From NCBI GenBank assembly GCA_021813405.1, contig JAKAKS010000041.1, positions 1 to 60,773 of the forward strand: a stretch of 60,773 bases of DNA. Reading direction: 5' to 3'. The stretch comes from Nitrospirota bacterium. GTDB taxonomy: Bacteria > Nitrospirota > Thermodesulfovibrionia > Thermodesulfovibrionales > JdFR-88. Positions 5,512-46,390 of the stretch are shown here, in pieces. The position numbers and the translations under genes were made by a program. The notes beneath the pieces were generated by a model. It was not told where the DNA came from, made no database searches, and worked only from the letters and a program-made list of their open reading frames with translations. The stretch's first letter is position 1. Every line of letters starts with the position of its first letter.

Positions 5512-5527
5512 GATTTTTTATCTCCGC

Positions 5528-6256
5528 TTATGGCGACATGAAGTCGTCGAATATCTGTTCTCTGTAAGAAGTAATCTTTTTCTCTATCGTCAGTATGGCG
5601 AGGGGCTTAACACATATTTCGTCCTCATCAAGCTCAACTTTCACCTTTCGCTGAGGAAGGTAATGGTTTGAAGGCCCGGCCCCGGCTTCTGGCAGAAGCC
5701 TGTAGCCGTGTTTTTCGCGTATCGCCTTTGAAGCCTCGCTTTCAGGGTCGTCAATGTCCCCGAAGGTCCTGGCCCTTGTGGGGCATGCCAGTACGCAGGC
5801 CGGTTTCCGTTCCTCTTCGGGCAGGTCCTCATTATATATCCTGTCTACGCACAACGTGCATTTTTTCATCACGCCTTCATGCCCGTCAAACTCCCTGCAC
5901 CCGTAAGGGCAGGCCCACGAGCAATATTTGCAGCCGATGCAGTCATCATAATTTACAAGCACTATGCCGTCTTCTTCGCGCTTGTATGACGCCCCTGTTG
6001 GGCAAACATCCACGCATGGCGCGTTTTTGCAATGCATGCAGGATTTTGGAAAGTTGATGACCTCGGTTTTCGGGTATTTGCCTATCTCGTATGTCTGCAC
6101 GCGGTTGAACCATACGCCTTCGGGCTGTTTGCCGTAAGGCTCCGTATCAGTAAGCGGGCCGAACTCTCCCGCTGTGTTCCACGCCTTGCAATTCGTGGCG
6201 CAGGCATGGCACCCAACGCATTTGTTAAGGTCTATCACCAGTGCTAATTGGCTCAT
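5528..6256 (-). CDS. soeB: SoeB-type electron-transfer subunit, four [4Fe-4S] clusters
   Basis: A 242-residue ferredoxin-like subunit of the DmsB/NrfC/SoeB type. Four cysteine groups are visible: 'CVGCHACATNC' at residues 13-23, 'CMHCKNAPCVDVC', 'CIGCKYCSWAC' and 'CTLC...CVLAC'. It passes electrons between the molybdopterin subunit and the membrane subunit. The sequence, including the 'VQTYEIG.YP.TE' insert and the 'GPSNHYLPQR' tail, resembles SoeB of sulfur oxidisers more closely than classical DmsB. Its ATG overlaps the soeA stop by 4 bases, indicating translational coupling. Confidence 0.87.
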   Translation of the reverse strand: MSQLALVIDLNKCVGCHACATNCKAWNTAGEFGPLTDTEPYGKQPEGVWFNRVQTYEIGKYPKTEVINFPKSCMHCKNAPCVDVCPTGASYKREEDGIVLVNYDDCIGCKYCSWACPYGCREFDGHEGVMKKCTLCVDRIYNEDLPEEERKPACVLACPTRARTFGDIDDPESEASKAIREKHGYRLLPEAGAGPSNHYLPQRKVKVELDEDEICVKPLAILTIEKKITSYREQIFDDFMSP

Positions 6257-9132: not shown

Positions 9133-9140
9133 TCTCTATT

Positions 9141-9193
9141 CTTATGATTTTTGTCTTTGAGTTGCAGCTTATGATTTTGCCCTTGAGTTGCAG
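9141..9193. repeat. Tandem 27/26-base repeat in the soeA leader
   Basis: Two adjacent near-identical units (9141-9167 and 9168-9193) share 24 of 27 positions, each reading cttatgatttt...ttgagttgcag. They lie 9-61 bases before the soeA start on the minus strand, in or near the 5' leader. They may be regulator sites or a recent slip duplication. Confidence 0.65.
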
Positions 9194-9516
9194 CCCTGTG
9201 TAAAAGTATAAAACCTCGCTTCAATCAAAGTAAACGAATTGGTTCATAATTATTTTTTATTCATATTTGCAACTTCGAAGCATAACATGCCCCCTGTGCG
9301 GTACTCTGCGACGGGTTAGAATTGATTGCAAGATCAGACACTTAAAGGATGTCTTCCTATGGGTAAAAGATACTTGCCACATATGAGGCTTTCCGGGATC
9401 CCGATGGCATAAGAGAACCGGCGCTTAAGAACATGGGCCCTGGCATATCCAGCCGCTATCAGACAGGCGGTGGAAGCCAGATAAGGTATGTTTGCCGCTT
9501 CAAGCCTGCAGCTTGA
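9194..9516. other. Intergenic region between soeA and greB
   Basis: About 320 bases without a convincing gene. AT-rich sequence near 9230-9280 probably holds the soe promoter, but no clear -35/-10 pair could be chosen. On the plus strand a short open frame ending at 9516 reads 'FRDPDGIREPALKNMG' and then 'IRYVCRFKP'. It looks like a protein tail but has no start signal; it may be a relic. Confidence 0.4.
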
Positions 9517-10023
9517 TTACTCTAGCTCACCATAGCCGACTGAGGTCACCACATAGGCAACCGTACCAGAGGGCGTGCTCACCAGAACTTCATCGCCCCG
9601 GGCCTTGCACAACAATGCCTTTGCCATTGGAGAATCAATGCTGATTAACCCCTTTGGGGGATAGAATTCGTCCGGCCCGACGATGCGATACCTGAATTGA
9701 TTCCCATCGGGGTCTTCAAGCCCCACCCAGGCGCCGAAAAACACCTTCGACTTGTCACTGGGCGGCCGGTCTACTACAACCAATTCGTTCAGCCTCTTTA
9801 TAAGAAACCGCATACGGGAATCGATCTGCCTTAATTGCTTCTTTCCGTAAATATACTCTGCGTTTTCTGACCTGTCCCCCATGGCCGCAGCTTCGGCAAC
9901 TGCCTGCGTGACCTGAGGGCGCTTCACCTTCCACAGATATGCCAGTTCATCTGCCAAGCGCTTTTGCCCATTGGGTGTAATATACGGCGAAACCTTTATT
10001 TTTCCCTGCAACGGGATTTTCAT
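9517..10023 (-). CDS. greB: Transcription elongation factor GreB
   Basis: A 168-residue GreA/GreB protein. It rescues backtracked RNA polymerase by stimulating cleavage of the 3' end of the transcript. The N-terminal coiled coil carries 'GDRSENAEYIYGKKQLR', with the acidic tip residues D and E used at the polymerase active site; 'YGKK' and 'FLWK'-like spacing fit GreB rather than GreA. The C-terminal FKBP-like domain ends 'SPMAKALLCKARGDEVLVSTPSG'. Its start overlaps the end of the upstream methyltransferase gene by 4 bases, so the two form one unit. Confidence 0.92.
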   Translation of the reverse strand: MKIPLQGKIKVSPYITPNGQKRLADELAYLWKVKRPQVTQAVAEAAAMGDRSENAEYIYGKKQLRQIDSRMRFLIKRLNELVVVDRPPSDKSKVFFGAWVGLEDPDGNQFRYRIVGPDEFYPPKGLISIDSPMAKALLCKARGDEVLVSTPSGTVAYVVTSVGYGELE

Positions 10024-11180
10024 AATACCTGTTTGGTCTTTCTGCTGCCTTCGTAAAGCTCATACTCCAAAAGCCTGCATTCTATCCTGCCGTTAAAAAA
10101 AGGCGTTCTCTTTTTTGCCTTCAGCCCCACTTTTTTTGCCAAGTCCATATTTCCCGTGAAGATATATCCCTTGTATCCTTTGCACTTCTGCTTGAAAAAA
10201 TCGCCTACCCCTTCGTACACGCCCTCAAGCTCTTTCACCTCACCCATTCTCTCCCCGTATTCCGGATTGATTATCACTATCCCGCCGCCCTCAGGGACTT
10301 CGGTTGCCGAATAATCGGATACTCCGAATTCGATCAGGTGCTCCACCCCCGCAGCAGCGGCGTTTTTCCTTGCCGCCTCAACGGCCTCTTTATTAATATC
10401 GGTTGCAATAAGCCTGCACCCCGGTGCAGGCCTTGCTCTCTGTTTTGCCTCCACGATGAACTGGTTGAAGAGAGGTTTATTAAATCCTTTGAGATGCATG
10501 AACCCGTAATTGCGGCGCAAAAGCCCGGGCGCCCTGTTAAGGGCAATTAAGGCAGCCTCGATTGCGAGGGTGCCGCTTCCGCACATGGGATTGACCAAGT
10601 GGCCCCCGCCGTTCCATCCGGTGGCCATGATAACGGCAGCGGCAAGCGTCTCCTGCATGGGGGCCGCCATGGGCAGTTTCCTGTAATTGCGCCTGGAAAG
10701 GGGTTCGCCCGATGTATCAAGATAAAGCGAACACCGCGTTTCTTTCCAGTAGAGGTTTACCACCACCGCGTCCTGGGCAGGGCCTGAATCCGGGCGCCGC
10801 CCGCGCCGTTCCTTCATCCTGTCCGCAATAGCATCCTTGCACACTACATTTGCATAGCGGGAGTCCCTGATAGTAGGGTTGTCCACGCTTGAGGCTACGG
10901 AGAAATAGCCGTCCTCATCTATATGGTTCTCCCATGATATTTTTGAAACCGCGCGGTAAAGGGCATCGGCATCCGCCGCGGTAAATTCCTTAAGTAGAAA
11001 AAGGACGCGGTGCCCCGTTCTGAGATAAAGATTAAGCCTCATGGTGTCATTGAGAGTCCCTTCCGTCTCAATGCCCGCAATCGTCTCGGACAGAACGGGA
11101 AATCCAAGCCCTAGTATTTCTTGTTTTAAAAACGGCGGTATGCCCTTTGCGCAGGTAACGAGGATTTTACTTTTTTCCAT
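10020..11180 (-). CDS. THUMP-domain class I RNA methyltransferase (RlmL-N / YpsC type)
   Basis: A 386-residue SAM-dependent methyltransferase predicted to modify 23S rRNA guanine, as RlmL and YpsC-like enzymes do. The THUMP region covers about residues 1-160. It is followed by 'PMCGSGTLAIEAA' (SAM-binding), 'ATDINKEAVEAARKNA' (acidic ribose contact) and the motif IV position 'INPEYGERMGEV'. Most relatives have NPPYGER; here the second proline is glutamate, a substitution also recalled from some other lineages. The target base is not determined by sequence. It is the first gene of a two-gene unit with greB. Confidence 0.85.
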   Translation of the reverse strand: MEKSKILVTCAKGIPPFLKQEILGLGFPVLSETIAGIETEGTLNDTMRLNLYLRTGHRVLFLLKEFTAADADALYRAVSKISWENHIDEDGYFSVASSVDNPTIRDSRYANVVCKDAIADRMKERRGRRPDSGPAQDAVVVNLYWKETRCSLYLDTSGEPLSRRNYRKLPMAAPMQETLAAAVIMATGWNGGGHLVNPMCGSGTLAIEAALIALNRAPGLLRRNYGFMHLKGFNKPLFNQFIVEAKQRARPAPGCRLIATDINKEAVEAARKNAAAAGVEHLIEFGVSDYSATEVPEGGGIVIINPEYGERMGEVKELEGVYEGVGDFFKQKCKGYKGYIFTGNMDLAKKVGLKAKKRTPFFNGRIECRLLEYELYEGSRKTKQVL

Positions 11181-11187
11181 GCTGCCG

Positions 11188-11391
11188 TTATGTTCTTTTT
11201 TTACCTGTTACGTCTTTCCGGGCAGAGCAGGTGATGGTAAAATTTTCAGGTTCAAGGTCTGGATTTTTCTCAAGCTCTTCAACAAAATTGATGATCGCCT
11301 TTCGCATGAAGGCCGAGAAGTGTATCCGTCTGGGTAACGCCAGAATCCTCTGCCGTGTAGGCTCGTCGATTGTTGCCGTGTACTTTGCCAT
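11188..11391 (-). CDS. Small hypothetical protein, possibly ribbon-helix-helix-like
   Basis: 67 residues, starting 'MAKYTATIDEPTRQRILALP' and ending in a basic tail. The ATG has a strong Shine-Dalgarno (AAAGGAGAG about 9 bases before), which supports a real gene. A short N-terminal strand followed by two helices is compatible with a ribbon-helix-helix DNA-binding fold, but no family was recognised. It ends 7 bases before the methyltransferase start, so it is probably the first gene of that operon. Confidence 0.65.
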   Translation of the reverse strand: MAKYTATIDEPTRQRILALPRRIHFSAFMRKAIINFVEELEKNPDLEPENFTITCSARKDVTGKKRT

Positions 11392-11511
11392 TTAAACCCA
11401 GCTCTCCTTTCGCGCATATTTATTATACGGAATCACGGCGCAGTCTTGCTGCAGAATAAGACGTTAAATGGCGGCGGATGTTGACAACCTGGAAATGATG
11501 GCAACTGCCTT

Positions 11512-11709
11512 CTACTCATTCAATATTTTCTTTACGCGCCCCACTTCGCCGCTTTGCAGACGGACTTTGATTCCATATGGATGTCCGGATGACTTGGTTA
11601 AAATATCTTTGACGATCCCGTCTGTCAGCTTTCCGGTCCGCTGGTCTTTTTTCAACACTACTGAAACACATAGCCCTGCTCTTATATCGGAACGCCTGGT
11701 ACCGTCCAT
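11512..11709 (-). CDS. ywbE: YwbE family protein (DUF2196)
   Basis: A 65-residue conserved protein: 'RSDIRAGLCVSVVLKKDQRTG' and 'GIVKDILTKSSGHPYGIKV' match the YwbE family, which is found widely in bacteria and fungi. The family folds as a small beta-rich domain of unknown function; a link to RNA or translation has been suggested from context only. It lies between the small gene at 11188 and the divergent uup gene and appears to be its own unit. 11710-11960 holds no further gene. Confidence 0.85.
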   Translation of the reverse strand: MDGTRRSDIRAGLCVSVVLKKDQRTGKLTDGIVKDILTKSSGHPYGIKVRLQSGEVGRVKKILNE

Positions 11710-11960
11710 ATATTTTTGTCCGCCTCCCGCCCGCTCAAACGCTCCCGCCCTTCGGGGCAGTAATGTACTTATCCGCTAAAAAAATCTACCGCTATTATAC
11801 ACTCGGGCAGTAACATCGCACTGGTGATGGCGCTGTTCCGTTATAATAAATGAGGCGGAAATGATGCGAGGACGAAAAGTTTTTTGCGCCGCATGATAGA
11901 TCCTCCGGGCCTGCAGTTTCTTTTTTGAAATCTCGTATACTCTTCTAATCGAGGTGAAAT

Positions 11961-13736
11961 TTGGCATTGGTGAGTTTGCAGGAGGTTAGGCTCGCTTTTA
12001 ACGGCCCCGCGCTGCTCGACGGGGTGATGCTCCAGATCGAACGCGGCGAACGGGTCTGCCTGGTAGGCAGAAACGGGGCGGGCAAATCCACTCTTTTAAA
12101 GGTGATAAGCGGCTCTGCTTCTCCCGATGCAGGCAAGGTCATACGGCAGAGCGGCGCGTTGACCGGATTGCTGGAGCAGGAAGTCCCGCATGATATCTCC
12201 GGCACTGTCTTCGATGTAGTCTCCGGCGGACTGCAAGCCAGGCACAAGGTGGAAAATGTCCTTTCCCGCTTAAAATTGCATCCCGATGCTTCTTTTGCCG
12301 GTCTTTCTGGCGGGTACAAAAGAAGGGTGCTGCTGGCAAGGGCGCTTGTGTGCCAGCCGGACCTGCTGCTGCTTGATGAGCCCACTAACCATCTGGATAT
12401 TGAATCTATTGAATGGCTTGAGAAATTCCTTCTCGATTTCCGCGGCGCCATACTTTTCATAACCCACGACCGGAGATTTCTCCAGGCCCTTGCCACCCGC
12501 ATAATCGAGCTGGATCGCGGGCGGCTCACCGATTGGCCTGGCGATTACGCAACCTACCTTACCAGACGACAGACCGAGCTGGATGCCGAAGCTGCGCACA
12601 ATGCGCTTTTTGATAAGAAGCTTGGCAGGGAGGAGGCATGGATACGGCAGGGGATCAAGGCCCGGCGCACCCGCAATGAGGGCCGGGTGAGGGCGTTGAA
12701 GGAGTTAAGGAGTATGCGCCTGGCAAGACGTGAGCAGAGCGGCAGCGTCTTGATGCGGCTGAACGAGGCCGAAAGGTCGGGCAAGCTGGTCCTTGAGGCA
12801 AAGGGGATAGGACATAGCTATGAGGACCGTCCGCTGATACGCGATTTCTCCACTATTGTGGTACGCGGGGACAAGATTGGGATTATCGGCCCAAACGGCG
12901 CGGGAAAGACCACATTGCTGAAAATACTTCTTGGCGTGACGCCCCCCTCGGAGGGCTCCGTGCGAATGGGGACCCGCCTCGAGATCGCCTACTTCGACCA
13001 GCACAGGGCGCAGCTTGATGATAATAAATCGGTAGTTGAAAACGTGGGGGATGGAAGCGACACCGTTACGGTCAACGGCAGGACAAGGCACATAACCGGC
13101 TATCTGGAGGATTTCCTTTTCCCCTCTGAACGTGTCCGCCAGCCCATAAGGCTATTGTCGGGCGGCGAGCGAAACCGGGCGCTACTGGCGAAGCTCTTCA
13201 CGAAACCGTCAAATGTGCTGGTGGTGGACGAACCTACTAATGACCTGGATACCGATACCCTGGAACTCCTTGAGGAGATGCTGATAGAGTACAAAGGCAC
13301 CGTTTTTCTTGTGAGCCATGACCGCGAGTTTCTGAATAACATCGTTTCCAGCACCATAGTATTTGAAGGCAACGGAAGGCTAGCCGAATATGCCGGAGGA
13401 TATGACGACTGGCTCTGCCAGCGCCCCAAGGCCACACCAAACGCCGGGAAGGCCAGTAAAGCGCCAAAGCAGGAAAGCCGCCGGCCAAGACGGGCGCCGG
13501 GCCCCCGCATCCTTACATTCAGTGAGGCAAAAGAGCTCGAAGCTCTGCCTGCGCTGATCGAAGCGCTTGAATCCGAGCGCGCCCGGCTTTACGAAGCCCT
13601 TGCGGACCCCGGCTTCTACCGGCAGGACGGAAGCAGGATAGCAGCGGCAAAGGCAAGGATACAGGAACTCGAAAAAGAAATTGCCGGCGGGTATCACAGA
13701 TGGGAGCTTTTAGAGTTGCTCCCGAAAAGGACATAG
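11961..13736 (+). CDS. uup: ABC-F ATPase, Uup family
   Basis: A 591-residue soluble protein with two ABC ATPase domains in tandem and no membrane segments. Walker A motifs are 'GRNGAGKST' (about 36-44) and 'GPNGAGKTT' (about 312-320); signatures are 'LSGGYKRR' and 'LSGGERNR'; Walker B motifs are 'LLLLDEPTNHLD' and 'VLVVDEPTNDLD'. An arm/linker rich in Arg lies between them, and a C-terminal coiled coil (about 525-591) is typical of Uup. ABC-F proteins bind ribosomes; Uup also affects transposon excision and branched DNA. The start is TTG at 11961, with GAGGTG 5 bases upstream, because the family sequence begins there and no ATG fits. Confidence 0.92.
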   Translation: MALVSLQEVRLAFNGPALLDGVMLQIERGERVCLVGRNGAGKSTLLKVISGSASPDAGKVIRQSGALTGLLEQEVPHDISGTVFDVVSGGLQARHKVENVLSRLKLHPDASFAGLSGGYKRRVLLARALVCQPDLLLLDEPTNHLDIESIEWLEKFLLDFRGAILFITHDRRFLQALATRIIELDRGRLTDWPGDYATYLTRRQTELDAEAAHNALFDKKLGREEAWIRQGIKARRTRNEGRVRALKELRSMRLARREQSGSVLMRLNEAERSGKLVLEAKGIGHSYEDRPLIRDFSTIVVRGDKIGIIGPNGAGKTTLLKILLGVTPPSEGSVRMGTRLEIAYFDQHRAQLDDNKSVVENVGDGSDTVTVNGRTRHITGYLEDFLFPSERVRQPIRLLSGGERNRALLAKLFTKPSNVLVVDEPTNDLDTDTLELLEEMLIEYKGTVFLVSHDREFLNNIVSSTIVFEGNGRLAEYAGGYDDWLCQRPKATPNAGKASKAPKQESRRPRRAPGPRILTFSEAKELEALPALIEALESERARLYEALADPGFYRQDGSRIAAAKARIQELEKEIAGGYHRWELLELLPKRT

Positions 13737-13972
13737 AAAGCCAATAAACTCGCTTCGTTCGGCTTCGCGGGCGGGGTATTGCCCCCGCCACTGGTCTGCG
13801 CCGCCCCGGCTCCCGATGACGCAAGGTGCCCGCAGCTTGCGGAGTATGTATGAATGATGGCCAGGACAAGCATGCTGGCCTGTTACATCAGCGCCGGGAG
13901 TTTTTAACATCCCGGCTGTTTATAGGTTTTTTTTCGAGGCCTTCCTGTCCGGGTGCTTAACCCGGGCCTCAC
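13737..13972. other. Intergenic region between convergent uup and oprM
   Basis: No gene is seen. G/C-rich stretches around 13760-13850 could form weak hairpins, but none has a clear U-tract. It separates two convergent transcripts. Confidence 0.4.
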
Positions 13973-15439
13973 TCACGCCCCCCCGCCAAGTACCTTGTAG
14001 AGGGTAATCAGATTGTTGAGCCTGGAGAGACGAATGGTAATCAGCCCTTGCTGTGCGCTGTAAAGAGCGCGCTGGGAGTCCAGGACATCCAGATAGCTGG
14101 ATATGCCTTTGCTGTAAAGCGCCTGCGATAACCGGTAAGCGCTGGCATCGGCATTCGTTAAAGCTTGCTGGGCCTTAAGTTGGCCGCCAATGGTGCCGTA
14201 CTGGGCAAGAGCGTCAGCCACTTCTCTGAAGGCGCTCTGGATCGCCTTCTCGTACTGTGCAAGGAAGATTTCACGGTTAACCTTTGATGCCTTCAGATTT
14301 GCCTCAAGGCGCCCTGCTTCAAAGACCGGCAAAGTGATTTGCGGTGCGAAGCTCCATGTTCCGGATGCCCCCTTGAAGAGCCCGGACAACTGAGGGCTTG
14401 CAAGCCCCAGGCTGCTTGTGAGGGAAATAGTTGGAAAGAATGCCGCACGCGCCGCGCCGATGTTGGCGTTGGCAGCCTTCAGGAGATCTTCCGCCTGCAT
14501 GATATCAGGACGGCGCAGAAGCACACCGGAGGGCACGCCGGGGCTGATATGTTTCAGTGTAATTGCACTGAGCCCGGAGGGCAGGAGGTCAGCCGGCACT
14601 GGCGCGCCGACAACAAGAGCCAGCGCGTTTTCATCCTGGGCCACCTGGCGCGTGAAAGCAGCAATATCAACCTGGGCTGTATCAACAGTTGTCTCTGCCT
14701 GCTGAAGATCCAGCCCCGATGAGATTCCGGCATCGAAGCGGCTCTTGATCAGGTTGTACGAAACCTGCTGGTTTTTTAATGTCTCCTGAGCGATTTCCAG
14801 ATGCTCCTCATCGGCTGCAAGGTTCAGGTAGTCACTTGCCACCTCTGCCATGAGGCTGATCTGCAAGCTGCGACGAGCCTTGACAGTTGCGAAAAACTGT
14901 TCCAGAGCCTGCTTTTTGAGGCTTCGCACCCGGCCAAACATATCTATCTCATAGGAGCTGAAACCGAGCCCCACACTATATTCATGTGAAGTCAGCGCCC
15001 GTCCGCTTGCAGATAGACCAGCCGGTATCCGCTGGTCAAGCCCGGTGGCGGCCGCTGTCACCGTTGGAAAAAGATCGGCGCGCTGTATTTGATAAAGCGC
15101 CTGGGACTCTTCGATATCGAGGGCGGCTATTCGCAGGTCCCGGTTGTTTTCCAATGCAAGTTCAATCAATTTTCGCAATTGCCCGCTAACAAAAAACTCC
15201 TGCCACTTGATATCGGCCGCAACCTTGCCGGACGGTTTAATTTTATAAGCAGGGCCGCTCGGCCATTTGGCCGGCACAGGCGCTGTGGGCCGTGTATATC
15301 TGGGAATCATTGTACAGTTTGAAAGAGCAAGAAGGACAAGGACAAAAATTGCGATATGGAGTCCTCGGCCTGGCAGATGTTCGAGCATACCGGCTTGTTG
15401 CCTCAGAAGTTTTTGGAATATGCAATGCGTTTTTACCAT
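13973..15439 (-). CDS. Outer-membrane efflux lipoprotein, OprM/NodT family
   Basis: A 488-residue TolC-like channel of the NodT/OprM lipoprotein subfamily: signal sequence with lipobox 'LALSNC', then the paired OEP repeats. Typical blocks include 'RTEV'-like 'LLRRPDIMQAEDLLKAANANIGAARAAFFP' (conserved in OprM) and 'SYLDVLDSQRALYSAQQ'. It forms the trimeric exit duct of the pump. The start chosen is ATG 15439, preceded by GGGGAGGAA at 7 bases; the acrB stop is only 1 base upstream (TGATATG). An upstream in-frame start at 15472 would overlap acrB and has no ribosome site. Confidence 0.88.
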   Translation of the reverse strand: MVKTHCIFQKLLRQQAGMLEHLPGRGLHIAIFVLVLLALSNCTMIPRYTRPTAPVPAKWPSGPAYKIKPSGKVAADIKWQEFFVSGQLRKLIELALENNRDLRIAALDIEESQALYQIQRADLFPTVTAAATGLDQRIPAGLSASGRALTSHEYSVGLGFSSYEIDMFGRVRSLKKQALEQFFATVKARRSLQISLMAEVASDYLNLAADEEHLEIAQETLKNQQVSYNLIKSRFDAGISSGLDLQQAETTVDTAQVDIAAFTRQVAQDENALALVVGAPVPADLLPSGLSAITLKHISPGVPSGVLLRRPDIMQAEDLLKAANANIGAARAAFFPTISLTSSLGLASPQLSGLFKGASGTWSFAPQITLPVFEAGRLEANLKASKVNREIFLAQYEKAIQSAFREVADALAQYGTIGGQLKAQQALTNADASAYRLSQALYSKGISSYLDVLDSQRALYSAQQGLITIRLSRLNNLITLYKVLGGGA

Positions 15440-36490: not shown

Positions 36491-37072
36491 ATGGCTGAAG
36501 AAGTAAAGTTAGGAAATCCAGCGGTAGTTGGGCTGGCAGGTTTTGGCATGACAACCCTGATCCTGCAGTTTCATAACCTGGGGCTCGTCAGCTTGGGGCC
36601 GGTTATCTGGATAGGGCTTCTGTTTGGGGGCAGCGCCCAATTGGTTGCGGGCCTGCTTGAATTCAAAACCGGCAACAATTTTGGTTTTTGCGCTTTTACA
36701 GGCTATGGAGCGTTCTGGATATCATTGTGCCTGTATCTGATTTTCGGTACAAACGCCGATATAGCCAAAGCTTTCGGAGTCCTTGCATTTGACGGGCATG
36801 GGCTTGGCATATTCCTTCTGATGTGGACGTTCTTCACCTTTATACTGTTCATCGCATCAATGAAACACCACACCGTACTTGCGCTGCTTTTTTTGACCCT
36901 GCTTCTGGGCTTTACCGGTTTGGACCTGAAAGAGCTGGCCGGAATCCAGACGGCCGGCACCCTGGCAGCGCTGGACCTGATCGTATGCGCGCTGCTGGCG
37001 TGGTATCTCATGGCGGTTACAATATATGCCGAATCGGGCATAAAGCTGCCGGTAGGTAGTCCGTGGCTTTAA
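36491..37072 (+). CDS. satP: Acetate uptake transporter, GPR1/FUN34/YaaH (SatP) family
   Basis: 193 residues with six hydrophobic helices. The family motif NPAVVGL-F near the start ('GNPAVVGLAGFGMTTLILQ') is present, as is 'GLLFGGSAQLVAGLLEFKTGNNFG'. SatP/YaaH imports acetate and succinate with protons. The start has AGGAGG 7 bases upstream. It is 57 bases before acs, so uptake and activation of acetate are linked in one unit controlled by the upstream two-component pair. Confidence 0.9.
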   Translation: MAEEVKLGNPAVVGLAGFGMTTLILQFHNLGLVSLGPVIWIGLLFGGSAQLVAGLLEFKTGNNFGFCAFTGYGAFWISLCLYLIFGTNADIAKAFGVLAFDGHGLGIFLLMWTFFTFILFIASMKHHTVLALLFLTLLLGFTGLDLKELAGIQTAGTLAALDLIVCALLAWYLMAVTIYAESGIKLPVGSPWL

Positions 37073-37129
37073 ACGTGATTTTCCGGGAACTGGGGCTAAC
37101 AAAATATCAATCGGGAGATAATTTTTAAA

Positions 37130-39109
37130 ATGGCTGACAACGGCAGTGGTTTTGATGTGCTTATGTCTGAAAATCGCGTCTTCCGTACAGCACCGGAGAT
37201 CAGTAGCAGAGCCCACGTAAGAAGCATGGCAGAGTACAATTCTGTTTACAGGCGATCCATGGAGGACCCCGAAGGCTTTTGGGGCGAGATGGCCGAAAAA
37301 CGGCTGACGTGGTTTAAGAAATGGGATAAGGTTCTGGACTACGATTTTGAAAAGCCCTATATCAAGTGGTTCCAGGGCGGCAAACTCAATGCCAGCTATA
37401 ACTGCCTGGACAGGCACCTTTCCGGCCCGGGGCGCAATAAGGCCGCGCTCATCTGGGAGTCCGATGATGGGGCGTTCAAAACCTATACATACCAGCAGCT
37501 TGCCACCGAGGTGAACCGGTTTGCCAACGTGCTTAAAAAGCACGGCATCACCAAGGGTGACAGGGTGACAATTTACCTGCCCATGATACCGGAGCTGCCC
37601 ATATCCATGCTTGCATGCGCCCGGATAGGGGCCATTCACAGCGTTGTTTTCGGCGGCTTTTCAGCCCAGTCCCTCAAAGACAGGATAAATGACTGCGGCG
37701 CCAGGCTTCTCATTACGGCGGACCAGGGATTGCGGGGCGGAAGGAAAGTGGCACTGAAAGCCAGCTGTGATGAGGCACTGAATGAATGCCCTACGGTGGA
37801 GAAATTGATAGTTGTCCAAAGGACCGGGGGCGGAGTGGACATGACCCCCGGAAGGGATTTCTGGTGGGAAGACGAAATTGCCGCGCCAGACATAAAGAAT
37901 TTCTGCCAGCCTGAGGAGATGGACGCGGAAGACCCTCTGTTTATTCTTTACACGTCCGGGTCCACCGGAAAACCAAAAGGCGTGCTGCATACGACGGGCG
38001 GGTACATGCTTTATACCAACCTGACATTCGAGTGGATATTCGACTGCCATGCCGATGACATCCATTTCTGCACCGCAGATATAGGCTGGATTACCGGCCA
38101 CAGCTATATCCTCTACGGCCCGCTTTCAGCGGGGGCCACATCGCTAATGTTTGAAGGCATACCCAGCTACCCGGACCCGGGCAGGTTCTGGCAGATAATT
38201 GACAGGCATAAGGCTAGCATTTTCTATACCGCTCCAACTGCCATAAGGGCCTTGATGCGCGAGGGTGAAGAATGGACGCAGGGGCACGACCTCTCTTCCC
38301 TGAGAGTTCTGGGGACGGTGGGGGAGCCGATAAACCCGGAGGCATGGATGTGGTATTTCAAAAACGTGGGCAAGGGCAGGCTGCCTATCGTTGATACCTG
38401 GTGGCAGACAGAGACCGGCGGCATACTGATAACGCCGCTGCCCGGCGCCATGCCGCTTAAACCAGGGTCCGCTTGCAGGCCGTTCCCAGGCGTTGCCCCC
38501 CTCGTGGTAAACGAAAAGGGCGAGGCTGCCCAGCCAAATGAGGGCGGCTATCTGTGCATATCAAAACCATGGCCGGGAATGCTGCGCGGCACATATGGAG
38601 ACCCGGACAACAAAAGGATAAAGGAAGTCTATTTCAGCCGGTTTCCAGGCAAGTATTTTTCAGGCGACGGGGCCAGGGTGGACGAGGACGGGGATTACTG
38701 GCTTATGGGCAGGGTGGATGACGTTATCAACGTCTCCGGCCACAGAATAGGCACCGCCGAGGTTGAATCCGCCCTGGTAAGCCATGAGGCTGTGGCCGAA
38801 GCGGCCGTGGTGGGTTTCCCGCATGAGATAAAGGGCGAGGGGATTTACAGCTATGTAACGCTGAAGGCCGGCCTTGTTGCTGATGAAGCCCTCAAAAAAA
38901 GCCTTATAGGCCATGTGCGAAGCGCTATAGGGCCCATCGCAGCCCCCGACAAAATGCAATTTGCGCCAGGGCTGCCAAAAACCAGGAGCGGCAAAATAAT
39001 GAGGCGCATACTGAGAAAGATAGCCAGGGGTGATGTGGAAGAGCTGGGCGATACATCTACTCTGGCGGACCCTTCGGTAGTGGAAAGCCTGGTAAAAAAC
39101 AGGCAGTAA
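37130..39109 (+). CDS. acs: Acetyl-CoA synthetase
   Basis: 659 residues, the normal size of Acs. It converts acetate, ATP and CoA to acetyl-CoA through acetyl-AMP. Visible blocks are the P-loop-like '[15 protein letters not shown]', the acyl pocket segment '[16 protein letters not shown]', '[10 protein letters not shown]' and the hinge '[18 protein letters not shown]'. The C-terminal '[14 protein letters not shown]' carries the lysine that protein acetylation uses to switch Acs off. Follows satP in the same operon. A hairpin AGGGGCGG / CCGCCCCT at 39127-39158 may end the transcript. Confidence 0.95.
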
Positions 39110-40007: not shown

Positions 40008-42053
40008 ATGAATCTCAAGAAAAAATCCTTGCTGTTTCTTTCGTTAATCCTTTTGCTGGCCTTCAGCCTGAACACAGCCGTCCTCACCCTTATCGCAACA
40101 GCAAAATATAAAAAGGCCATGCTCGCAAAAAGCATGTATATGGGGCAAAACCTCAAGGGCGACCTGGAGAAAGCGCTTGCCCTCGGAATCCAGATTAAGG
40201 ACATTCCAGGCCTGGATGATAAACTGGCTAGCCTTGCAAAAAGCGAGAAGGACCTGGCATTTATTTCGGTAACGGGCCCTGACGGCACAGTCCTGGCCAG
40301 TGCGGGCCAGGCCCCTGCACGCCTGCCAGGCCCGGCGCTTGCATCAGCAGCACAGGATGTAACTGAAACAGGCGGCCTCTATTATATGAAAATCCCCTTG
40401 AAGGATGCCGCGGGCAATATTGGAGGCTCGCTTACGCTGGGGCTGAAATCTGGAGGCATAAAGGCACAGATCTACAGCCTTCTGTTCTGGGCGCTTGGCA
40501 TATTGCTGGTGTGTTTTCTGATATTTGTGCCGATGGTGTACTTCGCAATCTCCCGGTTCATAACCAGGCCCGTTATCGGGATACAGACGGCCGCAGCCCG
40601 GATAGCCTCCGGGGACCTGACACATACTACGGTACTAAGGGGCAACGACGAAATAGCCGCGCTTAGCCAGTCTATCAACACAATAGCCGCCAGCCTGAGG
40701 GAGATGATACATAAAATAAAGGAAGTTACCGAAGACATCTCCAAGGTGTCCTTCAAGGTGGAGGAGTCCTCCGGCAAGATACTGGCAGGCGTGGAAGAGC
40801 AAAAATCCTCGGTTGAGATTGCAGGGGCCACCCTGGAAACGGTAAAGGAATCGATTGCTTTGGTATCTGCTGCCGCCGAAGGCCTCTCCCTGGCATCCGA
40901 AGAGACTTCGTCTTCAGCAACCCGTATGAGCTCCGCCATTTCCACAATAGCTGAAAGCGCGGAGGTCTTCGACGGGGCAGCCAGTGAGACTGCGTCCTCC
41001 ATAGAACAAATGATTGATGGAATAAACCGGATAGCTGGAGGCCTGGACAGCCATTACAAGGCTTCGGAGTCCATAGCGTCTTCGGTTGAGGAAGTGAATG
41101 CCGCCATCAAGGACATAGAAAAGAGCGCGGCGGAGTCCGCCGTGCTAGCCGAAAAAGTGCAGCGCGCCGCTTCGGTAAAAGGGATGCAAAGCGCCCAGGC
41201 GGCCCTGAAAGGCATCGACGATATAAAACAGAGCGTAACCGGAATGGCGGAAGCCGTAAACGGGCTTGGGCGGCAATCACAGGAGATAGGCTCCGTAGTT
41301 ACAGTTATAGATGAAGTTGCCGAGCAGACCGGCCTGCTTGCCCTTAACGCCGCCATCCTTGCCACACAGGCGGGCGCGCATGGCAGCGGGTTTGCAGTGG
41401 TGGCCAGCGAGATAAAGGCGCTGGCCGAGAGGACTTCCGCTTCCACAAAGGAGATATCGGAACTTGTGGTTTCGGTCCAGAACATGGTGAAGTCCAGCAT
41501 CGAGAAGGCTTCCTCCAGCATACAGACCGTTGAAGCAGGGCTGGACATGGTACGCCAAACCAACGACTATCTGAGTGAGATTGCAAAAAGCTCGGCTTCG
41601 GCTGCCGAAATGGCCGGCGTGATCCGCAAGGCCACATCAGAAGAGGCCCAGGTTATCAGGAACATTGCCGACACAACAAGGCAGATGAGCAGTGAAACGG
41701 AAAAGATATCCGAGGCGTTAAACGAGCAAACCAGAGGCAGCAAGCTGATACTTACCGCAACGTCCAGGATAAAGACGCTCTCGGCACAGGTGAGGTCCGC
41801 CGCCGCCCAGCAGAAAACAGGGAGCATGGAGATCTCGCAGACAGCGGAGAACGCGGCGGGCCAGTCCGGCCAGATCGCGCGCTCAACCGGCCAGCAGAGG
41901 CAGATGAGCCATGAACTCGCTGCCCATATGGAAAAGATAAATGGCGCGGCTGGCAGTCTGGCCCACTCAGTTACGGATATGGCCATGGTAGTTGATTCGC
42001 TTAAGGGAAAAGCCGCGGACCTGGCATCGGAACTGGAAAGGTTCAAGCTGTAA
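40008..42053 (+). CDS. Methyl-accepting chemotaxis protein
   Basis: 681 residues. First helix at about 8-30, a short periplasmic sensor part (about 31-155, 'VTGPDGTVLASAG', Cache-like), second helix about 158-185 and HAMP about 187-240 ('RPVIGIQTAAARIASGDLT'). A long coiled-coil signalling domain follows with hairpin tip 'AEQTGLLALNAAILATQAGAHGSGFAVVASEIK'. No C-terminal NWETF-like tail is present for CheR/CheB docking. It has its own promoter. The next genes are for extracellular electron transfer, so a redox or mineral-related stimulus is possible but unproven. Confidence 0.92.
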   Translation: MNLKKKSLLFLSLILLLAFSLNTAVLTLIATAKYKKAMLAKSMYMGQNLKGDLEKALALGIQIKDIPGLDDKLASLAKSEKDLAFISVTGPDGTVLASAGQAPARLPGPALASAAQDVTETGGLYYMKIPLKDAAGNIGGSLTLGLKSGGIKAQIYSLLFWALGILLVCFLIFVPMVYFAISRFITRPVIGIQTAAARIASGDLTHTTVLRGNDEIAALSQSINTIAASLREMIHKIKEVTEDISKVSFKVEESSGKILAGVEEQKSSVEIAGATLETVKESIALVSAAAEGLSLASEETSSSATRMSSAISTIAESAEVFDGAASETASSIEQMIDGINRIAGGLDSHYKASESIASSVEEVNAAIKDIEKSAAESAVLAEKVQRAASVKGMQSAQAALKGIDDIKQSVTGMAEAVNGLGRQSQEIGSVVTVIDEVAEQTGLLALNAAILATQAGAHGSGFAVVASEIKALAERTSASTKEISELVVSVQNMVKSSIEKASSSIQTVEAGLDMVRQTNDYLSEIAKSSASAAEMAGVIRKATSEEAQVIRNIADTTRQMSSETEKISEALNEQTRGSKLILTATSRIKTLSAQVRSAAAQQKTGSMEISQTAENAAGQSGQIARSTGQQRQMSHELAAHMEKINGAAGSLAHSVTDMAMVVDSLKGKAADLASELERFKL

Positions 42054-42208
42054 CGATGAATAAATTTTTTCATGGACATCGGCAAGTAAAAAATTTGATA
42101 ATACATCGGGCGCTGGTCCGTGGGGTAATATCCGGCCAAATAGCGGATTTTAAAAAATAATTTAAGGCCTTTGCGGGGCCAGGTATTGGGGGAGGGTAAA
42201 AAATTAAC

Positions 42209-43225
42209 ATGGGAGGGGCGCAAAAACGGCCGGTTTTTAAGGCCCTGTTCAGTCTTATTGTATTCCTGTCCCTTTTTTTCTCAGGGTGCGAGGCCCTGAG
42301 GCAATCCAGACCAATCCTGCCCATGAGGCAATACGAGAAGATGGTCGCCGGCAGGCTGGATGCCGATTACGTGGGCACCAAGACATGCCTTTCTGCCTGC
42401 CATTATCACGACCAGCTTAAAAAGGATTTTGACGCAAGCACAATGGGCGTGCAGATCCGGCGGTCGTCGGGGCTGCCGCTTGTCAATTGCGAGTCATGCC
42501 ATGGGCCTGGCAGCCTGGCGATAAAAGGGATTACCCCTGAAAAGGTGGCAGCCGATGCAAAGCGCGGCATCCAGACGGCATGCAATTACAAGACGTTCAT
42601 AGATATCAAGCATCTGCCTCCCCAGGCACAGACGCTGATATGCCTGAAATGCCATACTGAAAATGCCACATTCAATCTGCATAACTGGAATGCCGGCCCG
42701 CATGCGCAGGCTGGCGTAAGCTGCATCGATTGCCATAAGGTGCACAACGGGCCTGACCTGAAGACGATGCAAAGGGACATCGCCAGCATGTGTTTTAAAT
42801 GCCACAAGGAGGTTAAGGCGGAATTCTCACTGCCAAGCCATCATCCTGTTAACGAAGGAAGGGTTTTCTGCACGGACTGCCATGACCCCATGGGGTCTAT
42901 AAACGAGAAGATGCTTCGCAGGCCCACAGTTAAGCAGACCTGCACCCGCTGCCATGGGGAAAAGGAAGGCCCGTTTGCATTCGAACATTCGGAGAACACG
43001 GAGGACTGCCGCACCTGCCACAGGCCCCACGGGTCCGTGAATGCAAACCTGCTTGTTGTGCCGGTGCCGTTTCTCTGCCTTCAGTGCCATGCCGGGCACA
43101 GGATTTCATCAAGCTCCGCGCCCGGTTCCGTAAGCACCTTTTATACAAGGTGCACCGATTGCCATTCGCAGATACACGGGACAGACCTGCCTTCAGCAAG
43201 CGGGAGCGGGTTTTTCCACAGGTAA
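42209..43225 (+). CDS. DmsE/MtrA-family decaheme c-type cytochrome, lipoprotein
   Basis: 338 residues. A signal sequence ends at 'LFFSGC', so it is likely a lipoprotein. Nine CXXCH heme motifs are seen (CESCH, CLKCH, CIDCH, CFKCH, CTDCH, CTRCH, CRTCH, CLQCH, CTDCH), plus an N-terminal CLSACH, a CX3CH site. Together that makes ten hemes, as in the family. The C-terminal 'IHGTDLPSASGSGFF' matches the DmsE/MtrA ending. MtrA-type cytochromes sit inside an MtrB barrel and carry electrons across the outer membrane; the next gene is that barrel. No outer-surface cytochrome gene is seen. 42054-42208 before it holds no other gene. Confidence 0.9.
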   Translation: MGGAQKRPVFKALFSLIVFLSLFFSGCEALRQSRPILPMRQYEKMVAGRLDADYVGTKTCLSACHYHDQLKKDFDASTMGVQIRRSSGLPLVNCESCHGPGSLAIKGITPEKVAADAKRGIQTACNYKTFIDIKHLPPQAQTLICLKCHTENATFNLHNWNAGPHAQAGVSCIDCHKVHNGPDLKTMQRDIASMCFKCHKEVKAEFSLPSHHPVNEGRVFCTDCHDPMGSINEKMLRRPTVKQTCTRCHGEKEGPFAFEHSENTEDCRTCHRPHGSVNANLLVVPVPFLCLQCHAGHRISSSSAPGSVSTFYTRCTDCHSQIHGTDLPSASGSGFFHR

Positions 43226-43235
43226 AGGGGACATT

Positions 43236-45317
43236 ATGGGGGGGATAAGAAAAATTTTTCCGGTGCTGCTGGCTGCAATGCTTGTATTTGCGCATAGGGC
43301 CGTATGCCAGGAACTTGCCGGTGGCCAGGGTGCCAGGGCGCAGGGCAGCCCGGCCCAGGTGGAAGCCCCGGTTCAAAATGCCGTTTCTGAGGACAGCCAG
43401 GAAGAGGAGCCCGAGGAAAGCGGATATGCTTTCCCGGTAATCCCCCCGAAATACAAATTCCATGCGGGATACAGGTTTGCCGGAAACTCGGGGTCCGCAA
43501 GGGGGGCCGATGAATACGATTTTCTTCATAACTCGGTAGTTTTTGGCGGAGCTGCCCGGCTGTTTGATTATCCCAACAGGTTTCATCTCATAATCGATGA
43601 GGTCAACAGGAACGACTATTACGGCTACCTCAATTACTCCTACAAGGACCTGGTCTATTTTGAGGGCGACACAAGAGCAGTGTTCCATAATCTCGGCAAT
43701 ATAAACCTTATACTCCTGACGCCGGCGCCGTCTTCCGTGGGCGTTGACAACAGGGCACCCGGCGCTTCGTTTGGATATAAGGCCGGCATGGACGATTTTG
43801 TGTTCAGGCTGAAAGCGCCCGGCTACCCGGCCCACCTTTATGTGAAAGGCAGCGTCTTTAACAGGGACGGGCTGATTGAACAGAGGTTCCTTGGAGGCGC
43901 TGGCTTTTTTAATGACGCGGTTCGCACATCCGAGGCGCGGGATATTGACTACACAACGGAGGCCTTTCAGGTTGGCATAAACAGCCACCTGGGCCCGCTG
44001 GAGGCCCAGTACGAGCATGAGGAAAAAAGATTCAATGCCAACGGCCAGCCCGTGCTGTTCGATAATTTTGCCGCCGCCGGTTTCCCGCCAGGGTCAACCC
44101 TAAAGGCTGGAATTTATCCGCATAACGAGTTTTCGCAACTGAAGGGCTCATCTAATATGCTGATGCTGCATACTTCCTATACCGGAGAGATTGTGGCCTC
44201 GGCAACCATATGGTCGGTTGACCGCAAGAACGAAGAAAGCGGCGCGAAGGCGGATTATATTTTTGGCGAAGGGGAAGTCACATGGACTCCGGCGCCATCC
44301 ACCGCCTTATTTTTCAAATACAGGCACAGGCAGGTTGACGAGGACACCCCGTCCGCCATAACGTTCGATAACGTCTGCAGCCCTTCAAACAATACGGCTG
44401 GAACCTATACCTGCTCATTGAAACCCGCCATATCCTCCAATACGGATTCCGCCTCCGCAACAGCCAGATATTATCTTTTGCCTGGCGCGGTGATCAGGGC
44501 CCGGTACAGCTACGACAATATCCGGAGGGACAACGCCTCCGTGTGGAACCTCCCTCAAAGCACGCAAAAAGACACAGAATGGATTGCCATGGACATAAAT
44601 GCCGTAAGGGCCCTGGATATTAAGCTGAAATATACCCACAGGAACATCTTTCACCCGTCCGTCAACTCGGAGCCCAACAGGGCGGACGAGGGCCGGATAT
44701 CGGCATCGTGGCTGCCAGCTTCGTGGATAGACGCGCTTGTCTATTACCAGACAGGCCAGGAACACCGTGATACCCTGGAATTTGCAACGGAGCAGTTCGT
44801 ACCCGTTACCGCCCCCGGCGGAAGGGACGTGCGCAGGGACAAGCTTCTGGCAGACATAACATTCCTCGTCAAACGCAACCTTACAGTCTCCACGATATAT
44901 TCTTATATGCGGGACAAGATACAGGAGCCCCTTGCATATAACAACCTTTCCGGAACAGTCCTGTTTGATCCAGATGTGCCTGCCGGACAGCAGGTAAATT
45001 ATTACGCAGTAAACGCAATGTATTCGCCTTTTGACATGCTTACGCTCAATGCGGGCATAGGCCATACGGTTGCAGGGATAGGCTTTACCCCCAACGACCC
45101 CAACATTACACAGCCTGTCCCGATATCGTCTTTTTCCACTTTAGACATGCACGAGACGGACTATACCATCTCCGGGGACTACCGCTTCAAAAGAGGCATG
45201 TCCGGAAGCCTGAGCTACAGATACAGCGATTTCACAAACGAGGGCGGCAACCCATATACCGAATTTCAAAATGGAACGGCGCATATAATATTGGTCTCGC
45301 TTACCAGGAGATGGTGA
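43236..45317 (+). CDS. MtrB/PioB-family outer-membrane porin of the cytochrome conduit
   Basis: 693 residues. Signal peptide at 1-24 (cut near 'AVCQ'), an acidic linker 'DSQEEEPEESGY', then about 26 predicted beta strands with alternating aromatic residues, ending 'HIILVSLTRRW'. MtrB/PioB barrels sheath an MtrA-type decaheme protein to make an outer-membrane electron conduit. A Cys pair far apart in one loop ('DNVCSPSNN' and 'GTYTCSL') may form a disulfide. It follows the decaheme gene by 10 bases, in the same operon. The direction of electron flow (metal reduction or Fe(II)/electrode oxidation) cannot be read here. Confidence 0.88.
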   Translation: MGGIRKIFPVLLAAMLVFAHRAVCQELAGGQGARAQGSPAQVEAPVQNAVSEDSQEEEPEESGYAFPVIPPKYKFHAGYRFAGNSGSARGADEYDFLHNSVVFGGAARLFDYPNRFHLIIDEVNRNDYYGYLNYSYKDLVYFEGDTRAVFHNLGNINLILLTPAPSSVGVDNRAPGASFGYKAGMDDFVFRLKAPGYPAHLYVKGSVFNRDGLIEQRFLGGAGFFNDAVRTSEARDIDYTTEAFQVGINSHLGPLEAQYEHEEKRFNANGQPVLFDNFAAAGFPPGSTLKAGIYPHNEFSQLKGSSNMLMLHTSYTGEIVASATIWSVDRKNEESGAKADYIFGEGEVTWTPAPSTALFFKYRHRQVDEDTPSAITFDNVCSPSNNTAGTYTCSLKPAISSNTDSASATARYYLLPGAVIRARYSYDNIRRDNASVWNLPQSTQKDTEWIAMDINAVRALDIKLKYTHRNIFHPSVNSEPNRADEGRISASWLPASWIDALVYYQTGQEHRDTLEFATEQFVPVTAPGGRDVRRDKLLADITFLVKRNLTVSTIYSYMRDKIQEPLAYNNLSGTVLFDPDVPAGQQVNYYAVNAMYSPFDMLTLNAGIGHTVAGIGFTPNDPNITQPVPISSFSTLDMHETDYTISGDYRFKRGMSGSLSYRYSDFTNEGGNPYTEFQNGTAHIILVSLTRRW

Positions 45318-46225
45318 AACAACTGAAAAAGGCAATACTCAACATATTTCTGCTTGGCCTGGGGATGATTCTTCTGCCTGCGGTTTCCTATGGCGCGGGC
45401 AATAAGATAATAGGAGTAATCATGGCCAAGGATGTCCCCTATTACGAGGCAATCCAAAAAGAGTTCATTAGAAAATTGACCGGAGAAGGAAGCCGGGCGC
45501 AAGTAATTGTCCAACGCCCCCCTGCTGACGACCCGATGTCGATAGCTAATACTGTGCGCAAGATGTCGGCCTATGGTGCCAGCGTGATCGTATCGTACGG
45601 CCCTCAGGCCACCGCAATTGCCCTGAAAGAAGCCGAAGGCGTGCCTGTAGTGTTCGCTGGTGTTTCAAATCCCGGGGCATTTGCCAGAAAAGCTACCGGG
45701 ATCAGTTCAAGGGTGCCAGCCGCTGGAATAATCAAAAATCTGAAGAGCATATCCAATTTTTCCACCCTTGGCGTGGTTTTTCTGGGCAGCAGCGCGGATT
45801 CCGCAGCCCAGGACTCAGAGATAAGGGGGCTTGAAGGCAATTTCGGATTCAAGGCCGTCCGGTTGAACTTGAGGACGTTGAAATCGGCCAGGGTTGGCGC
45901 CGTTTTTCTGACAAACGAGTGTGCTACAACCAGATGCTTCAGGGCCGCTGTAAGCACGGCGCGGCGTTCCAGGATTCCGGCGGCAGCAACCACAACCGGC
46001 GGAGAATCAAGCGGCATCCTCCTTACTATCGCGGCAGATCCGGCGGAACAGGGTGACGGGGCCGCCATGGCTGTTGCCCAGGTGCTGCAAGGGCGCAAGC
46101 CGGCATCGATAGCGGTAAGGCAGCCTAGGAAAATAGATGTGATTATAGATTTAAAAGAAGCAAATGCTGAAGGGCTTAAAGTGCCCTTCGACCTGCTCAC
46201 CTCTGCCACAAAAGTATTACACTAG
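45311..46225 (+). CDS. Orphan ABC substrate-binding-like protein (PF04392 family)
   Basis: 304 residues. Signal peptide 'LLGLGMILLPAVSYG', then a two-lobed type I binding fold: 'VIMAKDVPYYEAIQKEF', 'ADDPMSIANTVRKM', 'VVFAGVSNPGAF'. PF04392 proteins usually deliver amino-acid-like or other small ligands to an ABC importer. No permease or ATPase gene is near. It overlaps the end of the MtrB-like gene by 7 bases, so it is made with the conduit. A role in assembly or sensing for the conduit is possible but speculative. A terminator follows at 46362. Confidence 0.78.
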   Translation: MVKQLKKAILNIFLLGLGMILLPAVSYGAGNKIIGVIMAKDVPYYEAIQKEFIRKLTGEGSRAQVIVQRPPADDPMSIANTVRKMSAYGASVIVSYGPQATAIALKEAEGVPVVFAGVSNPGAFARKATGISSRVPAAGIIKNLKSISNFSTLGVVFLGSSADSAAQDSEIRGLEGNFGFKAVRLNLRTLKSARVGAVFLTNECATTRCFRAAVSTARRSRIPAAATTTGGESSGILLTIAADPAEQGDGAAMAVAQVLQGRKPASIAVRQPRKIDVIIDLKEANAEGLKVPFDLLTSATKVLH

Positions 46226-46361: not shown

Positions 46362-46390
46362 TAAGGGGAGCTGGCTCCCTTTTATTTTTG
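46362..46390 (+). terminator. Terminator of the porin-cytochrome operon
   Basis: AAGGGGAG / CTCCCTTT stem (one G-U pair) around a CTGG loop, followed by a T-rich run 'tttatttttg'. The upstream part, 46226-46361, shows no gene. Confidence 0.75.

Follow-up and report, generated by a model that had tools for sequence, protein, structure and literature searches.

A two-part outer-membrane electron conduit from a Nitrospirota bacterium, encoded with a putative periplasmic sensing arm

The window (the whole 60,773-nt stretch of DNA that was analysed) contains a four-gene set whose probable products are a two-part outer-membrane electron conduit and a periplasmic sensing arm dedicated to it. The PF04392 gene of this set, which the first-pass annotation had read as that of an orphan binding protein, is on the basis of gene order and phylogeny a member of a conserved candidate sensor unit, consisting of a binding protein and a receptor, that occurs near conduits in two phyla. 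This arrangement suggests that the cells sense something about their outside electron partner.

The three open reading frames described in that annotation, for a decaheme lipoprotein, an MtrB-type barrel and an overlapping PF04392 protein, are all present where it had placed them. The cytochrome gene (42,209–43,225, + strand) encodes 338 residues with ten haem motifs, of which the first is a CX3CH (CLSACH) and the other nine are CXXCH, as well as a lipobox (FSG–C) in which the lipid-site Cys27 is followed directly by Glu. Its product scores 245.7 bits against TIGR03508 ‘DmsE family decaheme’ (cut-off 192.2) and is homologous to MtrA (6r2q_A, E 8.4e-61, profile A3), and these matches, together with conservation, identify it as a decaheme lipoprotein of the DmsE/MtrA type. 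The barrel gene (43,236–45,317, + strand) encodes 693 residues that match PF11854 MtrB_PioB at 31.8 bits (cut-off 23). Whether this protein is a barrel at all had been named as the point on which the conduit reading could fall; its AlphaFold2 model (mean pLDDT 84) has 26 long strands, and its best match in the PDB is MtrB of the solved Mtr complex (6r2q_B; Foldseek E 1.4e-21), with a VIA-align Z of 26.1 over 567 residues at 3.6 Å, compared with a Z of 16.2 for the next-best entry. Homology and barrel fold thus back the minimal MtrAB/PioAB-like conduit proposed earlier, and the cassette contains no further haem protein, in agreement with the earlier remark that an outer-surface multiheme cytochrome is missing from the locus. 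From this kinship we infer the activity of the pair and the direction of electron flow: the lipoprotein cytochrome would be housed within the 26-stranded barrel or beneath it and, like MtrA in MtrB, pass electrons through the outer membrane.

As a conduit, the pair is an ordinary relative of MtrAB and OmcKL. The two-part conduits PioAB and MtoAB consist of a cytochrome and a barrel, without an outer-surface cytochrome. The window set is alike in this respect, with PF11854 as the sole sequence comparison, and differs from them in its sensor arm. Compared with MtrCAB of Shewanella (PDB 6R2Q), it likewise places the gene of a ten-haem-motif MtrA homologue beside that of a 26-stranded MtrB-type barrel, but its cytochrome is a predicted lipoprotein whose first haem motif is CX3CH, and the locus lacks MtrC and instead carries the PF04392 protein and a chemoreceptor. 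The nearest named families for both proteins are those of the two-gene conduit OmcK/OmcL (GSU2203/GSU2204; Geobacter, HotSeep-1). Since the scores against NF041028 (223.7 bits, cut-off 325) and NF041027 (77.3 bits, cut-off 350) fall below the curated cut-offs, the window pair is related to OmcK/OmcL but does not belong to these families by the NCBI rule. The accessible portions of the literature report up-regulation of GSU2203/GSU2204 with hematite and magnetite (PMC4070692) and call OmcKL a conduit (PMC10553843); for OmcKL they mention no sensor genes.

The binding-protein gene (45,311–46,225, + strand) overlaps the barrel gene by 7 bp and encodes 304 residues with a signal peptide and a PF04392 match of 54.5 bits (cut-off 25.9), and its solved relatives (6hni, 3lft and 3lkv) point to a TrpX-like fold. 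On these grounds, and on those of cassette conservation and phylogeny, we propose that this periplasmic protein is the ligand-sensing partner of a methyl-accepting chemotaxis protein (MCP) encoded at 40,008–42,053 on the + strand. The MCP gene lies just upstream, beyond the stretch covered by the first-pass annotation, and is part of the set. Its 681-residue product matches PF00672 and PF00015 and has the order of parts that defines the class, namely a transmembrane segment, a single-Cache/PAS-like periplasmic domain, a second transmembrane segment, HAMP and the MCP signalling domain. The window protein itself falls below any Pfam Cache model, and its Cache assignment comes from close relatives, which match sCache_3_2 (PF17203), and from a modest model of the sensor domain (pLDDT 77) that resembles the sensor domains of WalK, KinD and CitA. 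It is homologous to the MCP found after the binding protein in relatives; most of these carry the MCP gene downstream of the binding-protein gene, whereas in the window it stands upstream of the cytochrome gene, across a 155-bp gap; an MCP in an upstream position was otherwise seen only in the sister species G001 and in L082.

The comparison of gene order across Nitrospirota and Desulfobacterota that had been recommended earlier was carried out, and both phyla repeatedly show a cytochrome gene followed by those of a barrel, a PF04392 protein and a signal transducer, in many cases with overlaps between the genes. This transducer is either a Cache-domain MCP or a PhnD-like protein with a sensor kinase (HK) that carries a CXXCH haem motif, and in L151, L152, L154 and L156 the MCP itself bears a PhnD-like domain at its end. 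A 4-bp overlap joins the binding-protein gene to its partner in 15 of 27 pairs with an MCP and 16 of 22 pairs with a PhnD-like protein. Of 101 genomes, 22 gave a match to the MCP sensor domain (E ≤ 1e-25), which adjoins a conduit barrel in 21 of the 22 (Fisher p 9e-10, a value that ignores the kinship of the genomes), and matches to the binding protein above 200 bits share a contig with a barrel in all 22 genomes that have them; these co-localisation counts are drawn from within one order and are phylogenetically non-independent. For about 14 of the 73 barrels no sensor gene lies within reach, in part of these cases owing to contig ends. Some relatives additionally encode a lipoprotein with six CXXCH motifs upstream of the conduit, for which a search without a positive control returned no match in this genome. 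The binding-protein tree groups by transducer type, conduit-free loci included: a starred clade (n = 32; 100/98) comprises all HK-partnered proteins except one, with or without a conduit. In L058 and L098 the barrels fall among MCP-type barrels and the binding proteins in the HK clade, which means that the sensor module has been exchanged as a unit. Co-location, phylogeny and gene overlaps together indicate that binding protein and transducer are inherited together.

Because the gene pairs are conserved and often overlapping, and in view of the tree, the binding protein is a candidate signalling partner of the MCP. Rather than serving as the receptor of an ABC transporter, the PF04392 protein would bind a putative periplasmic ligand and present it to the Cache-domain MCP in a LuxP/LuxQ-like manner, and the MCP would pass the signal to one of the CheW/CheA systems of the genome. 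Relatives with a PhnD-like protein and a CXXCH sensor kinase in place of the MCP would act on gene expression instead of movement. It is conceivable, and we offer it tentatively, that the binding protein and the Cache MCP (or CXXCH-sensor kinase) report a ligand that is linked to the electron flow of the conduit itself, which would make the set a ‘sense and wire’ cassette found in at least two phyla. The module might instead sense some general signal, from nutrients or the envelope, and relay it to a chemosensory pathway, with no bearing on the electron partner; the use of several transducer types and the occurrence of the same module type on its own elsewhere fit this reading, but it appears unlikely given that the MCP sensor domain is nearly confined to conduit loci and that many partner sensors carry a CXXCH motif. 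Less probable still is a structural or assembly role of the binding protein in the conduit, for instance as a chaperone in the periplasm or as a donor of ligands to the barrel, with the MCP a neighbour by chance: its gene does lie directly 3′ of the barrel gene, often overlapping it, and most conduits of this type have it, but its phylogeny tracks the transducer and not the barrel, and close homologues stand beside a PhnD protein and kinase at loci that have no conduit. The reading of PF04392 as part of an ABC importer, in which a TrpX-like amino-acid uptake protein would sit beside the conduit merely through a shared operon, draws on the PF04392 and TrpX model matches and on one solved relative named as a transport-system part, but was rejected on gene context and is very improbable, as the TrpX model NF041285 gives 53.5 bits, far under its cut-off of 390 and thus short of membership by score, the tree follows the transducer, and no gene for an ABC permease or ATPase could be recognised beside the window gene, which has those of the barrel and the MCP as neighbours. 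The importer reading is also opposed by the other two PF04392 genes of the genome, because these, like the window gene, stand next to signal transducers: a PhnD protein with a CXXCH-containing HK (C9) and a PAS/Cache HK (C17).

If the ligand of the sensing arm is indeed linked to this electron flow, a porin-cytochrome system would carry the sensor of its own electron partner, which bears on the way in which cells respiring with solid or extracellular partners locate and select these. As far as the accessible text of the reports goes, Shewanella congregation at insoluble acceptors requires mtrBC/omcA and the Cache MCP SO_2240 (PMC5789149), and Geobacter growth on electrodes requires the esnABCD chemosensory network (PMC5585712); both conduits and chemosensory genes are needed there and are not reported as one gene set. 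The Shewanella behaviour resembles the window in combining an MtrB-type conduit with a Cache-domain MCP, but the same text presents SO_2240 as an energy-taxis receptor in its own right, and its gene number is far removed, whereas in the window the binding protein and MCP are encoded with the conduit in a genome where no flagellin was found. In AioX-AioS-AioR with its adjacent As(III) MCP (PMC7533571), a periplasmic binding protein and a transducer likewise lie beside a respiratory operon, and in LuxP-LuxQ a binding protein likewise acts on a PAS/Cache-type sensor (PMC8534201); the binding proteins and ligands of these systems differ, and their electron-transfer partner is not a porin-cytochrome conduit. 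A literature search largely without subscription journals found no paper describing the set of conduit, binding protein and MCP. Conduit, binding protein and transducer keep together across two phyla, while one transducer can replace another. The few proteins concerned form a short list, and finding their ligand would show directly what these cells sense; the gene set also offers a genomic mark by which such systems can be recognised in uncultured Nitrospirota.

Flagellin (PF00669) is absent from the genome, which is rated 100% complete, in a search that was positive in control genomes, and PilT-family proteins are encoded alongside the CheW/CheA systems; type IV pili, attachment/biofilm or a second messenger are therefore likelier outputs of the MCP than swimming. 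Scans for promoters and terminators gave matches that did not clearly exceed those in shuffled controls: the gap between the MCP and cytochrome genes (42,054–42,208, + strand) holds a promoter-like TGGACA-18-GATAAT (42,073–42,102) at chance level for the region, as is the terminator-like hairpin 3′ of the binding-protein gene (46,363–46,382, + strand), and the site search gave three sigma-54-type matches against 4.4 expected, so that we make no promoter claim. The inner-membrane quinol oxidase that the first-pass annotation had suggested seeking was not recovered, in that no protein of the genome exceeds the NapC/NrfH/CymA family cut-off and the one sub-threshold match is another decaheme cytochrome. 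As to cytochromes beyond the locus, which it had also suggested seeking, the genome encodes multihaem cytochromes elsewhere, among them proteins with 13 and 19 haems in the neighbourhood of a porin-like barrel. The ‘soeABC-type’ set at 4,501–9,132 consists of a DmsC-type anchor, an Fe-S protein and a molybdopterin enzyme, and a second MtrAB-type conduit is encoded at C17.

The three open reading frames that the first-pass annotation had read as a decaheme cytochrome, an MtrB-type barrel and a PF04392 binding protein are present exactly at the coordinates it gave, all on the forward strand. The DmsE/MtrA-type cytochrome (42209–43225) matches TIGR03508 at 245.7 bits (cut-off 192.2), and its translated ORF carries nine CXXCH haem motifs and one CX3CH motif (CLSACH), as well as a lipobox, FSGC, followed by Glu; aligned relatives from conduit loci keep the CX3CH motif and most keep the lipobox. 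A profile of the cytochrome family retrieved the MtrA chain 6r2q_A (E 8.4e-61), which is listed under a different molecule name in an entry that is itself the solved Mtr complex. The barrel protein (43236–45317) matches MtrB_PioB above cut-off, and its AlphaFold2 model (mean pLDDT 84) has 26 long strands, the same number as MtrB. The top solved structure for this model is MtrB (6r2q_B, Foldseek E 1.4e-21), with a VIA-align Z of 26.1 over 567 residues at 3.6 Å vs 16.2 for the next entry, bearing out the barrel fold on which the minimal-conduit reading depended. Seated inside the barrel, the cytochrome would move electrons through the outer membrane. The conduit is related to OmcK/OmcL (GSU2203/2204) but scores under the curated cut-offs of those families; expression of GSU2203/2204 rises with iron-oxide minerals (PMC4070692), and OmcK/OmcL has been described as a conduit (PMC10553843).

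Directly before the cytochrome gene, and outside the set first described, lies a forward-strand gene (40008–42053) whose domain matches define a methyl-accepting chemotaxis protein (MCP) with two transmembrane helices, a HAMP domain and an MCP signalling domain. Its relatives match the single-Cache model sCache_3_2, and its sensor-domain model resembles, with modest confidence, the extracytoplasmic PAS/Cache domains of WalK, KinD and CitA. Within the order to which the window belongs, window-type barrels occur in 40 of 101 genomes, and 60 named loci carrying them lie in Nitrospirota and Desulfobacterota/‘Deltaproteobacteria’; the gene order at most loci is cytochrome, barrel, PF04392 protein, transducer. 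The genomes are mostly MAGs, some cassettes are cut by contig ends, and a simple ORF caller supplied the ORFs outside the window. Most Nitrospirota have an MCP as the transducer. Desulfobulbales, certain other deltaproteobacteria and part of the Nitrospirota have a PhnD-like protein (PF12974, 213 bits at locus L087) and, after it, a histidine kinase bearing a single periplasmic CXXCH. Four loci (L151, L152, L154 and L156) have a PhnD-like domain at the C terminus of the MCP itself. L154 has an additional MCP (5805–8672), encoded immediately ahead of the decaheme gene, which combines a Mcp40H-20-type sensor containing CXXCH with a PhnD-like domain at its C-terminal end.

Sensor and conduit are linked across genomes. 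Using a 185-aa query that excluded the signalling domain (E ≤ 1e-25), we found the MCP sensor region in 22 of the 101 genomes, beside the barrel in all but one (21/22; the exception is G079), and its association with barrel presence (40 genomes with, 61 without) gave a Fisher p of 9e-10 with relatedness ignored. Matches to the binding protein above 200 bits occur in 22 genomes, always on the barrel's contig (22/22), and its gene overlaps that of the transducer by 4 bp in 15 of 27 MCP pairs and 16 of 22 PhnD pairs.

The binding protein (45311–46225), assigned by its PF04392 match and signal peptide, has a profile that retrieves the solved PF04392 proteins 6hni, 3lft and 3lkv. The label ‘orphan’ does not hold for it: a transducer adjoins all three PF04392 genes of the window's genome, none of which has a recognised transporter context, the cassette is conserved, and the binding-protein tree follows transducer type. 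One of the other two genes lies on contig C9 in a binding protein–PhnD–CXXCH-kinase operon with no conduit, the arrangement also seen at most of the loci examined for weaker homologues away from conduits, and the third shares 4 bp with the gene of a PAS/Cache histidine kinase. The tree's labels derive from gene neighbours, themselves located with profiles made from that same set. In this tree, a 32-row clade (100/98) holds kinase-partnered proteins with and without a conduit, and MCP-partnered proteins fall outside it with L108 as the sole kinase-partnered member among them; identical sequences were taken out, and near-identical rows inflate the clustering. The barrels of L058 and L098 group with MCP-type barrels, and their binding proteins lie in the kinase clade. 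It is chiefly this discordance that points to the transducer, not the barrel or a transporter, as the binding protein's partner, and the simplest reading is a swap of binding protein and transducer as one unit.

From the observed gene content, homology, fold and linkage, we propose that the binding protein would close on its ligand and then act on the Cache domain of the MCP, which would signal to a chemosensory system controlling pili, attachment or a second messenger. Comparable cases have been published: LuxP acts on LuxQ (PMC8534201), AioX–AioS occurs with an adjoining As(III) MCP (PMC7533571), Shewanella congregation at minerals requires mtrBC/omcA and a Cache MCP (PMC5789149), and Geobacter electrode growth requires the esnABCD network (PMC5585712). 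We found no description of the sensor-linked conduit form in the literature searched. The window's genome has CheW domains on contigs C41, C11 and C5, and the MCP hairpin tip, ALNAAILATQAG, is like those of C11 MCPs (LNAAILAAQAG) and unlike C41 (LNAAIEAARAG), which suggests the C11 system as its partner. The C11 che operon encodes CheB, CheR, CheW and a CheY-like regulator, without CheA. It also encodes a 956-aa MCP (L185, C11:1–18000, 8464–11334) with a C-terminal PhnD-like domain (PF12974, 203 bits) after the cytoplasmic signalling part, such that this binding-protein fold is apparently cytoplasmic. No flagellin was found in this genome, and three PilT-family proteins score above cut-off.

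No NapC/NrfH/CymA-type protein scored over cut-off in the same genome, so the quinol-oxidising partner is of another type or was missed; tetrahaem/NrfD-type and Rieske/cytochrome-b-like sets on contig C50, judged from their sequences, are candidates. A second MtrAB-type pair (L052, C17:140000–158000, 8734–12020), a decaheme protein and a 784-aa barrel (PF11854, 180 bits), lacks a binding protein; a predicted kinase and a response regulator come after it. On contig C13 (L053, 10000–29900), an NHL-repeat protein, a 469-aa porin-like Alginate_exp barrel and cytochromes with 13 and 19 haems are clustered (7140–14999), perhaps as another conduit type or an extracellular cytochrome set, so the genome may encode surface cytochromes away from the window. 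In some relatives, multihaem proteins with 6 to 13 CXXCH and lipobox-like N-termini adjoin the cassette, at L072 (5161–6615), L073 (11177–12793) and L085 (934–3387), and are possible outer-surface partners of the kind absent from the window. The soeABC-type complex of the first-pass annotation comprises a DmsC-type anchor, an Fe-S subunit and a molybdopterin oxidoreductase (4501–9132). Just upstream of the cassette (36491–39109), the genes of a two-component system that includes a sigma-54 activator are followed by an acetate uptake transporter gene and one resembling acetyl-CoA synthetase; acetate could be the electron donor.
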